Assembly: GCF_023022965.1 (NCBI RefSeq)
Contig: NZ_CP095462.1
Span: forward strand, 930,001 to 994,000
Source: Ectobacillus sp. JY-23
GTDB taxonomy: Bacteria > Bacillota > Bacilli > Bacillales > Bacillaceae_G
Length of the DNA stretch: 64,000 bases
Direction of reading: 5' to 3'
The notes below the pieces were generated by a model that saw only the letters and a list, made by a program, of their open reading frames with translations, made no database searches and had not been told where the DNA came from. The position numbers were made by a program, and so were the translations under genes. This document shows positions 55,790 to 60,472 of the stretch, in pieces. Positions within the stretch are counted from its first letter, which is position 1; every line of letters starts with the position of its first letter.

Positions 55790-55815
55790 ATAAAAAAGAC
55801 GCGTGACGCGTCTAG
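55790..55815 (-). terminator. terminator of the superoxide dismutase gene
   Basis: AGACGCG / CGCGTCT stem with TTTTTTA tail on the minus strand, overlapping the stop. Confidence 0.88.
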
Positions 55816-56729
55816 TATGCTTCCCACTCTATTTTTCGTGCTTTTTCAAAACGCTCCTCCACATTGCCCCAATTCACAACATTCCACCAATTATTTACAT
55901 ATTCTTCTTTTCTATTTTGGTACTGTAGGTAATACGCATGTTCCCATACATCTAGCACTAACAGTGGAATCGTATCCCATTGCGTAAACAGCTGATGTAA
56001 TGTGCTTTGTAGAATCTCTAGCCTACCAGATCTCGGCGCCCACACAAGAATAGCCCAACCCGAGCCCTCTACCTTGTTTGCTGCTTCTGTAAAATGTTTT
56101 TTGAATTTGTCAAAGTTACCGAAGTCTGATTCAATTTGCCGAAGGAGCTTTCCGCCAGGTCGTCCTCCGCCACCTCGCTTCATATTCCCCCAAAATATCG
56201 TGTGTAAATAATGACCGGATCCGTGAAATGCAGCTTCTCGTTCCCAGTGTTTTAATAATTCGAAATTGTTGGTATCTCTGGCCATTTGCATCATTTTTTC
56301 AGCCTTATTCAAGCCATCGACATAGCTACGATGGTGTTTATCATGATGTAGTCTCATAATTTCTTTTGCGATATACGGCTCTAATGCATTATAGGCATAC
56401 GGAAGCGGCGGCAGTGTATGTCCTCCTATCGGAACACTCCGCGTATCTTGATGCCTCTCATACATGGCATACTCGTCATAATGTCCTGAGACAAGCACTT
56501 CTTGTAAATGCCCTTGAATATTATCCACATCGTCGCTAATTTGATAAACAAACTCCACATCATAATCAAACTCATTGGCTTTAATGCGATCAAGGAGCAC
56601 CTGTATCCTATATTCAAGCATATGCACATCATATATTTCAGTTGCTCTACTATCTAATACATGTAATACACTTTCGCACCAATGTTCCACTTCATCAAAA
56701 TAATGATTAAATACCTCACGCTGGTTCAT
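55812..56729 (-). CDS. Fe/Mn superoxide dismutase with N-terminal extension
   Basis: A 305-residue protein. Residues about 1-103 form a helical, acidic extension (VFNHYFDEVEHW, IQGHLQEVLV) not found in ordinary SodA. Residues 104-305 form the Fe/Mn SOD fold. Metal ligands: His of RLHHDKH (first), His of GHYLHTIFW, Asp and His of DVWEHAYY. The GGGGGR loop is long. B. cereus SodA2 and B. subtilis SodF have the same extended form. ATG 56729 has GGGAGGTG upstream. The extension's role is not known. Confidence 0.9.
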   Translation of the reverse strand: MNQREVFNHYFDEVEHWCESVLHVLDSRATEIYDVHMLEYRIQVLLDRIKANEFDYDVEFVYQISDDVDNIQGHLQEVLVSGHYDEYAMYERHQDTRSVPIGGHTLPPLPYAYNALEPYIAKEIMRLHHDKHHRSYVDGLNKAEKMMQMARDTNNFELLKHWEREAAFHGSGHYLHTIFWGNMKRGGGGRPGGKLLRQIESDFGNFDKFKKHFTEAANKVEGSGWAILVWAPRSGRLEILQSTLHQLFTQWDTIPLLVLDVWEHAYYLQYQNRKEEYVNNWWNVVNWGNVEERFEKARKIEWEAY

Positions 56730-56840
56730 TAGGCACCTCCCTACTGTATTAAATGTATTCACTCGAGCAAATCACTATAACCTTTTTGCATATTCAATTC
56801 TGAAAACCCAAGAAACCTATTTCATATTCGCTGTACACGT

Positions 56841-56876
56841 AAAAAAGACGCGAGCACTTAGTCTCGCGTCTTTTTA
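56841..56876 (-). terminator. terminator of the GH10-like/amidase gene
   Basis: AAAAGACGCGAG / CTCGCGTCTTTTT stem, overlapping the stop. Confidence 0.92.
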
Positions 56877-59800
56877 ATCTACATAGTTATATAATCCATT
56901 AAATAAAGCTTGCGCTTGTGTTTGTTGATACTTCGGTGAAATGAGAAGCGCTCTTTCCAACGGGTTGGAGATAAAGCCCAACTCTGCTAAAACAGCAGGT
57001 CTTTCATTGTTACGAAGAACACTAAAATCAGCTGTTTTAACATATCTATTTCTTGCATTTGTACTTGAAATTAATGCACTTTGAATAGAATTAGCTAACA
57101 AGGTGCTCTCATTTACCACCCCCGCTGTAGGGTGATAGTATGTCTCAATACCTGAAATATTCGTATCTACAGAAGAATTAACATGAATGCTGACAAAAGC
57201 ATCAGCAGAAAGATTGTTAGCTACTTCTGCACGCATTTTTAAATCTGTTGCTTTATCCATATCTAATTGCGTATCCGTACTTCTTGTCATTGCAACCGTT
57301 GCACCGTGTGACTGTAATAGTGCTCGCAATCTAAGTGCTACGTTCAGCACAATATCTTTCTCATAATATGTGCCATAAACAGCGCCAGAATCTATACCGC
57401 CATGTCCCGGATCCAACACAATCGTTTTACCATGTAATGGACTTACAAGAAACGGTGATGATGTAGATGTTTGGATGCCTTTTTGATCGGTTACACGTAT
57501 GGTTACTGTATGTGTCCCCTTTGTTAGTCCTGCTGTGTCTAATGTATACGTAAAACCACTGTTACTTGTGTTGTATAAAGGAAACACCTTCGCTACATCA
57601 GATCTTGAAATGCCATATTGCGCTGTACCTTTTAGCATGCCATCTACTAATACTTCTACTTTGGAAACACCATTTTCAGATAACGCCCAGCCGCTTACGG
57701 TTTGCATCTTACCTACAGCTTTGTTTGGAGTGGGTTGATCTAAATACATTTGCATTGGCAATTTGACGACATTTACAACTGTATCTGTAGCTTGTACGTC
57801 TCCGGCTTTAGAAATACTTCTAACCGTTACCGTATGTTTACCCGCCGACAAAGCACTAGTATTTAACAAATACTCATAGCCGCTGTTTTTGTTATTATAC
57901 TTTGGATAGACATTATACACATCTGGTCTTGAAATACCATACTTAGCAATCCCTTGCAATTTTCCATCCACTAAGATTTCTACTTTTTCAATGCCCTCTT
58001 CCGCTAAAGCCCAGCCGCTAATTCTTTGTGTAGACGCAATATCTTGATTATACCGAATAGAATCTACACTAGAACGCATTGGAAGTGCTCGCACAACTTC
58101 AACACGACTTTGAACAGTTTGCACATCTCCGCCTTTTGTTTTAATAAGCAACGAGACAGTATGCAGTCCTTGTGTTAAAGTTCTTGTGTCAAGGGAATAA
58201 CGATAGCCACTGTTTTGATTTTTATACTGCGGATAGATAGCGTAAACATCCGGTCTAGATACTTCTAGCGTTGCATTTCCTTGTCGTACACCATCTACTA
58301 ACACTTGTACCTCAGCAATACCATCTTCTGCCAAAGCCCACCCGCTGATATTTTGATTGCCATTAATTTTAATACCGTCCCAAAGACTATCGAGACTATA
58401 GCGAAGTGGTAAATTTCGCAGCACTTGCACAGGTACCTGCTGCGTATGCTGCAAGCCATTGGAATCTGTAATACGAACGCCTAATTGATGAGCCCCGCTC
58501 TTGTACAAGAGTGTATTCAACTTATACGTAAAACCACTATTTTGATTGTTGTACTGTGGATAAACATTATATACATCAGTACGCAACACACCATAGTTTG
58601 CTTGGCCAATTACGTGCCCGTCCATGAGCAACTCAACCTTAGAAACACCGCTTTCTGCAAGTGCCCAGCCGCTTACATTCGCTGTGCCTTTTATACTTGC
58701 ATTCACAGAAGGCTGGTCCACCCACATTTGAAACGGAGATAATGTTTTAGCAAACGTTGGCGCACTTTCATTTTGAAGACGATCTAAGGCTGTAACAGCG
58801 TACTCATACTCTTCCTTAGGAGATGCATCTTTATCAAGAAATGATAAGCTCTGACTGCTATGAATCGTTGCAATTAACTTTGTTGCATCTTCCAAATTAT
58901 GCGCTTCTCCGCGTTTAAAGCGATAGACAGCATAGGAGTTTGCCCCGCTTGTTACCTTCCAACTAATGGTCACACCTTGAGAACTTCGCGAAACAGATAA
59001 ACCCTGAGGCTGACCAGGGGGCGTTTTGTCTATATGGGTCATCGCTGGGATAATAGCAGGATTTTGATACACACCATTTTGTAAATTGCTTGCAATACTA
59101 AGCGCATTTTGTTGCAATGTTTCAGATCTAAAGTGCATACTACCGGCTACATTCTTTTGGCGATTAAATATAATTTGATTTGGAATCTCATTTTGTGCCG
59201 TTCGCCAATCTTCCAAACTATTATAGGTATTAAGCTTGTAATCTGCATGACCAATATAAAGATGAACATTCGTACCCTTTACTTGCTCACTCCACCAGTT
59301 GGTTACCACCTCATACGGAGCCGCTTTATGACCAAATTTCCAATAGACTTGCGGCGCAATATAATCGATCCAGTTTTGCTTTACCCATTTCAAAGAATCT
59401 GCGTATACGCGGTAGTAACTTTCCATGCCCGTTGTATATGTGCCATCTCCCTTAGGGATATTTTTCCATATTCCATTTGGACTAATACCGAACTTTACAT
59501 AGGGCTTTACGGCTTTAATCCCTTTACTAAGGTCGTTAACAAATAGATTGATATTATTTCTGCGCCAATCTCCTACATTTGTAAAACCGTTTGCATACTT
59601 TTCAAACGTTTGAGCATCATTAAAGTCTGCATCGTTTTTAATATCGGGATAGAAATAATCATCTAGGTGAATCGCATCAACGTCATAGTTTTTTACAACT
59701 TCTAAAATTGTGCTTTTAATATAGTCCCGCACTTCTGGGAGACCTGGATTATAGTACATACCATTATTGTAATCTACTTTCCACTCTGGGTGCACACGCG

Positions 59801-60281
59801 CTGGATTAGAGGCTGCCAAACTATTTACATCTGTGCTGCCTGTTGCAACGCGAAACGGATTAAACCACGCATGAAATTCCATATTACGTTTGTGAGCTTC
59901 TGTAATCATGAATTCCAACGGATTATAGCCCGGATCTTTACCTTGCACACCTGTTAGAAACTGCGACCATGGAGCAAGATTAGTAGGATACAAGGCATCG
60001 CCCATTGGTCTAACCTGTACAATTACCGCGTTCATTCCAGTCGCTTTTAAACGATCAAGCAAAGATATAAACTCAGCTTTTTGCGCTTGTTGATCATTTT
60101 TGGTTTTGGGCCAATCTAGATTCCATACCGTAGATACCCAGGCAGCTCGCATCTCTCTTTTACTATCGCTTTGCGTTTCTGCTTTCGCTGCTTCATAGGG
60201 AACAAGCGGTATAAGAATAGTAGATAGTAGCAAACACAATACAAGCATCGCTTTCCATATTCTGTTGTAAGTGTAATTCAA
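56874..60281 (-). CDS. secreted GH10-like domain, FnIII, four Ig-like repeats and amidase_3
   Basis: A 1135-residue exported protein. Residues 1-35 are a signal peptide. Residues about 40-410 are a YngK/GHL10 TIM-barrel domain (EMRAAWVSTVWNLDWP, FHAWFNPFRV, IHLDDYFYP). Residues about 425-515 are a fibronectin type III domain. Residues 519-947 hold four repeats of about 105-108 residues, each with a (V/I)SGWAL(A/S)E.G(V/I) core and a YP.Y.N.NSG(F/Y) core. Residues 948-1135 are an N-acetylmuramoyl-L-alanine amidase with zinc ligands His (VLDPGHGG), Glu (Y..EKDIVLN), His (SIHVNSS) and the ELGFISN Glu. Start is TTG with AGGAGGG 11 bases upstream. Confidence 0.9.
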   Translation of the reverse strand: MNYTYNRIWKAMLVLCLLLSTILIPLVPYEAAKAETQSDSKREMRAAWVSTVWNLDWPKTKNDQQAQKAEFISLLDRLKATGMNAVIVQVRPMGDALYPTNLAPWSQFLTGVQGKDPGYNPLEFMITEAHKRNMEFHAWFNPFRVATGSTDVNSLAASNPARVHPEWKVDYNNGMYYNPGLPEVRDYIKSTILEVVKNYDVDAIHLDDYFYPDIKNDADFNDAQTFEKYANGFTNVGDWRRNNINLFVNDLSKGIKAVKPYVKFGISPNGIWKNIPKGDGTYTTGMESYYRVYADSLKWVKQNWIDYIAPQVYWKFGHKAAPYEVVTNWWSEQVKGTNVHLYIGHADYKLNTYNSLEDWRTAQNEIPNQIIFNRQKNVAGSMHFRSETLQQNALSIASNLQNGVYQNPAIIPAMTHIDKTPPGQPQGLSVSRSSQGVTISWKVTSGANSYAVYRFKRGEAHNLEDATKLIATIHSSQSLSFLDKDASPKEEYEYAVTALDRLQNESAPTFAKTLSPFQMWVDQPSVNASIKGTANVSGWALAESGVSKVELLMDGHVIGQANYGVLRTDVYNVYPQYNNQNSGFTYKLNTLLYKSGAHQLGVRITDSNGLQHTQQVPVQVLRNLPLRYSLDSLWDGIKINGNQNISGWALAEDGIAEVQVLVDGVRQGNATLEVSRPDVYAIYPQYKNQNSGYRYSLDTRTLTQGLHTVSLLIKTKGGDVQTVQSRVEVVRALPMRSSVDSIRYNQDIASTQRISGWALAEEGIEKVEILVDGKLQGIAKYGISRPDVYNVYPKYNNKNSGYEYLLNTSALSAGKHTVTVRSISKAGDVQATDTVVNVVKLPMQMYLDQPTPNKAVGKMQTVSGWALSENGVSKVEVLVDGMLKGTAQYGISRSDVAKVFPLYNTSNSGFTYTLDTAGLTKGTHTVTIRVTDQKGIQTSTSSPFLVSPLHGKTIVLDPGHGGIDSGAVYGTYYEKDIVLNVALRLRALLQSHGATVAMTRSTDTQLDMDKATDLKMRAEVANNLSADAFVSIHVNSSVDTNISGIETYYHPTAGVVNESTLLANSIQSALISSTNARNRYVKTADFSVLRNNERPAVLAELGFISNPLERALLISPKYQQTQAQALFNGLYNYVD

Positions 60282-60434
60282 AGTGTGCTTTTCCCTCCTA
60301 ATAGTAAATATTTTGGCTCACATTAAAAAATGATATCACCAACCCTGTATAGTGTCTAGACAAAATACGACATTATACATTATTGGAATATTATTCTGCT
60401 ACGCTTAAAAACTCCGGTAGCAAACTTACAAACA

Positions 60435-60472
60435 TGAAAAAAAACGGCCCCTGTATATATGAGCCGTTTTTA
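60435..60472 (-). terminator. terminator of ypuI
   Basis: AAAACGGC / GCCGTTTT stem with a 14-base loop and T run, between ypuI and the amidase gene. Confidence 0.8.

Follow-up and report, generated by a model that had tools for sequence, protein, structure and literature searches.

The window is a 64,000-nucleotide stretch from an Ectobacillus genome assembled as a single 3.9 Mb contig. A 1135-codon open frame with a TTG start runs through it from 60281 to 56874 on the minus strand. The earlier note had described an exported protein of 1135 residues in which a barrel is followed by an FnIII domain, repeats and an amidase. This protein is real, as judged from its signal peptide and from domains identified by Pfam or by structural models, and its gene lies on the minus strand. 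The features of the locus are:

56841 to 56876, minus: intrinsic terminator 3' of the gene (fold -19 kcal/mol, z -5.8)
56874 to 60281, minus: complete coding sequence, 1135 aa, TTG start (intact E. antri orthologue 96% identical, TTG kept)
56877 to 57428, minus: Amidase_3 domain, residues 952-1135 (Pfam; H960, E974, H1033, E1100)
57438 to 57755, minus: Ig-like repeat 4, residues 843-948 (repeat comparison; model pLDDT 96)
57762 to 58079, minus: Ig-like repeat 3, residues 735-840 (repeat comparison; model pLDDT 96)
58089 to 58406, minus: Ig-like repeat 2, residues 626-731 (Pfam; repeat comparison)
58416 to 58733, minus: Ig-like repeat 1, residues 517-622 (Pfam; repeat comparison)
58746 to 59021, minus: FnIII-type domain, residues ~421-512, packing on the barrel (model pTM 0.94; common to stand-alone YngK proteins)
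59076 to 60167, minus: Cwp19-like GHL10 TIM barrel, residues 39-402 (Pfam PF02638; PDB 5oq2, 1e-121; model TM 0.96)
59658 to 59663, minus: Asp207-Asp208 after barrel strand 4, Asp208 matching Cwp19 Asp196, the proposed catalytic acid (alignment with Cwp19)
60180 to 60281, minus: signal peptide, residues 1-34 (read from sequence)
60294 to 60299, minus: ribosome-binding site AGGAGG, 12 nt before the TTG (sequence; same in E. antri)
60330 to 60358, minus: candidate sigma-A promoter TAGACA-17-TATCAT with extended TG (consensus scan; hexamers conserved relative to E. antri)
60441 to 60470, minus: terminator of the preceding ypuI (DUF3907) (fold -13.4 kcal/mol, z -5.5)

The fusion gene is a one-gene unit with terminators on both sides. 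A later ATG at codon 12 was rejected as the start, being 45 nt from the ribosome-binding site and leaving the signal peptide without its basic n-region. Both hexamers of the candidate promoter are identical in E. antri, while the spacer differs; since the consensus scan gave no excess of promoter-like sites over shuffled sequences, it is this conservation on which the candidate rests. No near-threshold Rfam match to a regulatory RNA was found upstream of the gene. The adjoining dacB-spmA genes form a conserved neighbourhood and offer no evidence on physiological role. The superoxide dismutase gene at 55812-56762 of the window encodes about 110 extra N-terminal residues before its SOD domain, as it does in other genomes of the family.

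In the mature protein, Pfam matches cover GHL10 at residues 43-354 (1.1e-91), four stretches of Big_7 (4.7e-30) and Amidase_3 at 954-1130 (1.7e-51). They are preceded by a readable signal peptide, KAM-LVLCLLLSTILIPLVPYEAAKA/ET, which is the fastest-changing part relative to E. antri. This species is the nearest relative examined, and its orthologue, 96% identical, occupies the same genomic place. Comparison of the two copies gives a dN/dS of 0.087 overall, 0.06-0.10 in each mature domain and 0.063 in the barrel, a strong purifying selection, so the frame is neither fortuitous nor decaying.

The closest solved relative of the barrel is Cwp19 of Clostridioides difficile (PDB 5oq2, E 1e-121), with 51.4% identity over 356 residues, and the GHL10 profile PF02638 scores 307.6 bits against a cut-off of 27.9. 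Structure prediction, proposed in the earlier note for both barrel and repeats, gave a barrel model (pLDDT 94, pTM 0.94) that overlays 5oq2 with an rmsd of 1.6 A and a TM of 0.96 on the target. Active-site residues are kept at 12 of the 13 positions compared with Cwp19: the pocket residues W36, Q77, W127, R132, D196, Y197, S250, Q295, Y297, G328 and F367 are all present, and the sole mismatch is the cis-peptide residue Ser368, replaced by Arg385. An alignment of 46 barrels shows no variation at Asp207, Asp208 or Gly344, nor in most of the pocket. Cwp19 (5oq2/5oq3) thus resembles the window protein in its GHL10 barrel, fold, active-site residues, export and wall association, but its anchor consists of three CWB2 repeats, and it lacks both an amidase and Ig repeats.

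This relationship changes one premise of the earlier note, in which the barrel family had no settled substrate. Cwp19 has been demonstrated to act as a peptidoglycan lytic transglycosylase, termed the founding member of a family; products of the purified enzyme carry 1,6-anhydroMurNAc, MurNAc bearing a peptide is left with anhydro ends and bare MurNAc with hydrolysed ones, and loss of the enzyme abolishes the main zymogram band (PMC6016235). The window barrel has no second catalytic Glu of the GH5/GH42 type at the end of strand 7, where Gly344 corresponds to Cwp19 Gly328. In lytic transglycosylases the C-6 hydroxyl of MurNAc replaces water, and one catalytic acid/base is commonly enough. The lack of a conserved acidic pair, which the earlier note would have counted against the barrel, is indeed found but does not discriminate, because GHL10 enzymes including the active Cwp19 lack the second acid and lytic transglycosylases commonly use one. 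The structural study states the same for Cwp19, the second acid of related hydrolases being replaced by glycine and Asp196 alone being placed for catalysis (PMC5765458). In what was available of the two Cwp19 papers (PMC6016235, PMC5765458), we found no mutational test of the catalytic residue.

Two other readings of the barrel have to be weighed. It could be a non-catalytic glycan-binding module, leaving the amidase as the only active domain, and both the glycine at position 344 and the substitution of the cis-peptide serine by Arg385 would fit such a role. We regard this as very improbable: active Cwp19 carries the same glycine, Asp207-Asp208 and most of the pocket do not vary among the 46 barrels, and the barrel evolves under a dN/dS of 0.063. 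Less far-fetched, though still unlikely, is a barrel that acts on a polysaccharide attached to the wall or secreted (a secondary wall polymer, a PNAG-like or a biofilm glycan) in place of the peptidoglycan backbone, with the amidase and repeats bringing it to the wall. The structural neighbours next after Cwp19 include PgaB, a PNAG enzyme. The Cwp19 gene is placed in the PSII polymer locus and the enzyme is 13-66 times slower than lysozyme, the authors of the structure leaving a secondary polymer possible as substrate; yet the same study reports no significant action on the other carbohydrates tried (PMC5765458). DogH, a distant GHL10 protein, is reported to act on starch, but it is only 21% similar to Cwp19 (PMC9967864). 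Against this reading, too, Cwp19, 51% identical to the barrel, yields anhydromuropeptides and accounts for the main zymogram band (PMC6016235).

The amidase is complete, as the earlier note had claimed: the zinc ligands H960, E974 and H1033 and the catalytic E1100 are all present and align with the solved amidase 4rn7. A match to CwlD (TIGR02883) was rejected, its 158 bits lying below the equivalog cut-off of 221.55.

The four repeats are less alike than the "near-identical" units of 105-108 residues first described, with 37-50% pairwise identity and a spacing of 108-109 residues. They match Big_7 in four stretches and carry invariant Gly-Trp, Arg-x-Asp-Val and Pro residues, and they are modelled with confidence as tandem Ig sandwiches (pLDDT 96). 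In the same genome, an exported C39-type peptidase (C1:161100-163112; L053:601-2613) has four copies of the repeat and an exported YkuD L,D-transpeptidase (C1:1730586-1732721; L054:1587-3722) has five, 33-45% identical to those of the window protein. A repeat-only scan of public genomes returned mainly proteins of Neobacillus, Robertmurraya and Brevibacillus; among the 41 repeat-bearing proteins scanned, a glucosaminidase is present in 15 and an Amidase_3 domain in 10. The repeat occurs mainly on wall enzymes of differing catalytic kinds, either before or after the catalytic part, and judged by this association it is tied to the wall, which upholds the suggestion that it is a putative spacer or wall module. 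That the repeats are passive spacers with no wall affinity is nevertheless a serious contender, falling somewhat short of an even chance. The nearest solved match of the model is to the FnIII-like modules of CbhA, and clostridial proteins of similar design use other linkers; the varied wall enzymes that bear the repeat on either side, together with its invariant residues, argue by association for more than spacing. This question concerns the repeats alone and is compatible with two enzymes in one chain.

The pairing of barrel and amidase is not unique to the window protein. The genome count it had proposed found one fusion in 399 Bacilli genomes, that of the window, all other barrels (E < 1e-80) lying in frames of at most 643 codons. 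In Clostridia, fusions of ~870-1085 residues occur in 19 of 291 sampled genomes, with two more in another family, counts that are lower bounds, long frames having been fetched by choice. In all, 21 sampled genomes from other parts of the phylum, under 6 family codes, have the barrel ahead of the amidase. These clostridial fusions (L071-L073, L147-L156, L166-L173) have the same catalytic domains in the same order but other linkers, which lack the window's repeat, and a barrel of separate descent. As gene neighbours, GHL10 and amidase were found at none of 77 unfused loci (flanks of ~1-4 kb); for most Bacilli barrels an amidase is neither fused nor present in the flanks examined, and SLH or CWB2 wall anchors occur on other sampled GHL10 barrels. 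Closer to the window, two further Ectobacillus genomes and one of another genus in the same family lack the fusion, and there ypuI adjoins the superoxide dismutase gene. In one sampled protein (L074:1700-4846, G667) the partner of the GHL10 barrel is a complete GH3 with both its N and C domains; enzymes that cleave GlcNAc are found in the GH3 family.

The barrel data reject a shared origin of all fusions. The barrel tree groups the window with Bacilli, a 100/99 branch lying between it and the clostridial fusions, and constraining it to the clostridial fusions gives an AU p of 3.7e-4. The clostridial fusions alone as one clade are not rejected (barrel, without window rows, AU p 0.097); in both tests, two barrels with other C-termini nested among the clostridial fusions were retained in the group. 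The amidase tree also sets the window apart (100/99), but here the AU test does not reject a shared origin (p 0.156). From the barrel rejection and the 100/99 branches in both trees, phylogeny indicates that barrel and amidase were joined at least twice, the barrel evidence being decisive and the amidase evidence supportive. Independent fusion with a wall amidase is in turn evidence that GHL10 acts on peptidoglycan outside C. difficile.

Taken together, these data favour an exported, self-contained peptidoglycan autolysin with two activities, in which the barrel would cut the glycan and the amidase take off stem peptides, with the repeats keeping the protein at the wall or spacing it there (probability about 0.72). 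We infer both activities, their cooperation, the wall binding of the repeats and the physiological role. Mechanistically, the protein would be exported, after which its repeats would probably retain it in the wall. The barrel would cleave the MurNAc-GlcNAc bond as Cwp19 does, as a lytic transglycosylase that to some extent also hydrolyses at bare MurNAc, by means of the single acid Asp208. The zinc amidase would cut MurNAc-L-Ala and free the stem peptides, while the FnIII domain would pack against the barrel and the two heads would be kept apart by the four Ig repeats. Since Cwp19 makes anhydro ends at peptide-bearing and hydrolysed ends at bare MurNAc, the barrel could act before or after stripping. 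The proposal that one protein attacks both wall sugar and peptide is partly supported, both domains being most likely wall-active, although the substrate is not the blank it was taken to be.

Modular two-activity autolysins are already known as a kind, to which the window protein adds a variant. CwlP and CwlT of B. subtilis also have two wall-cutting domains per chain, but of other catalytic families (PMC10653849). A precedent for both chemistries working together on one wall comes from SpoIIP, an amidase, and SpoIID, a lytic transglycosylase; they are, however, two proteins, held by SpoIIM for sporulation, and act in an amidase-first order (PMC6221140). The window protein would in effect combine their two functions in a single chain. 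A bolder proposal, which we put forward tentatively and think somewhat doubtful, is a single-chain counterpart of that pair: the amidase would strip, the barrel would cut the stripped strand and the repeats would bind wall polymer, stand-alone YngK proteins being unrecognised lytic transglycosylases. If so, these widespread proteins would be missing from the list of 42 candidate hydrolases of B. subtilis, in a paper that mentions YngK zero times (PMC10653849).

The link to YngK follows from the front part of the window protein. Stand-alone YngK proteins of Bacilli consist of the same barrel and FnIII domain without repeats or amidase, and a paralogue of this type in the same genome (L056:1407-2966) is 48% identical over residues 22-514; by sequence, the window gene is a YngK-type protein extended at its C-terminus. 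We found no published activity for YngK-type proteins of Bacilli. A 40-fold hydrolase mutant of B. subtilis still has anhydromuropeptides, strongly reduced without mltG (PMC10653849). The pairing with an amidase suggests that the little-studied YngK family also acts on the cell wall, and the interest of the window protein and the clostridial fusions lies in providing a means to assign this overlooked family; with YngK absent from the 42-enzyme list, the prediction is directly testable in an existing laboratory strain, B. subtilis. The same genome also encodes a third, distant GHL10-like protein (C1:543488-545845; L055:489-2846) of 785 aa, scoring 78 bits, whose N-terminal half is unassigned. 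In one genome of the bacterial family (G010 C19:39415-40873; L019), the YngK gene is split into two frames of ~275 codons and is apparently broken.
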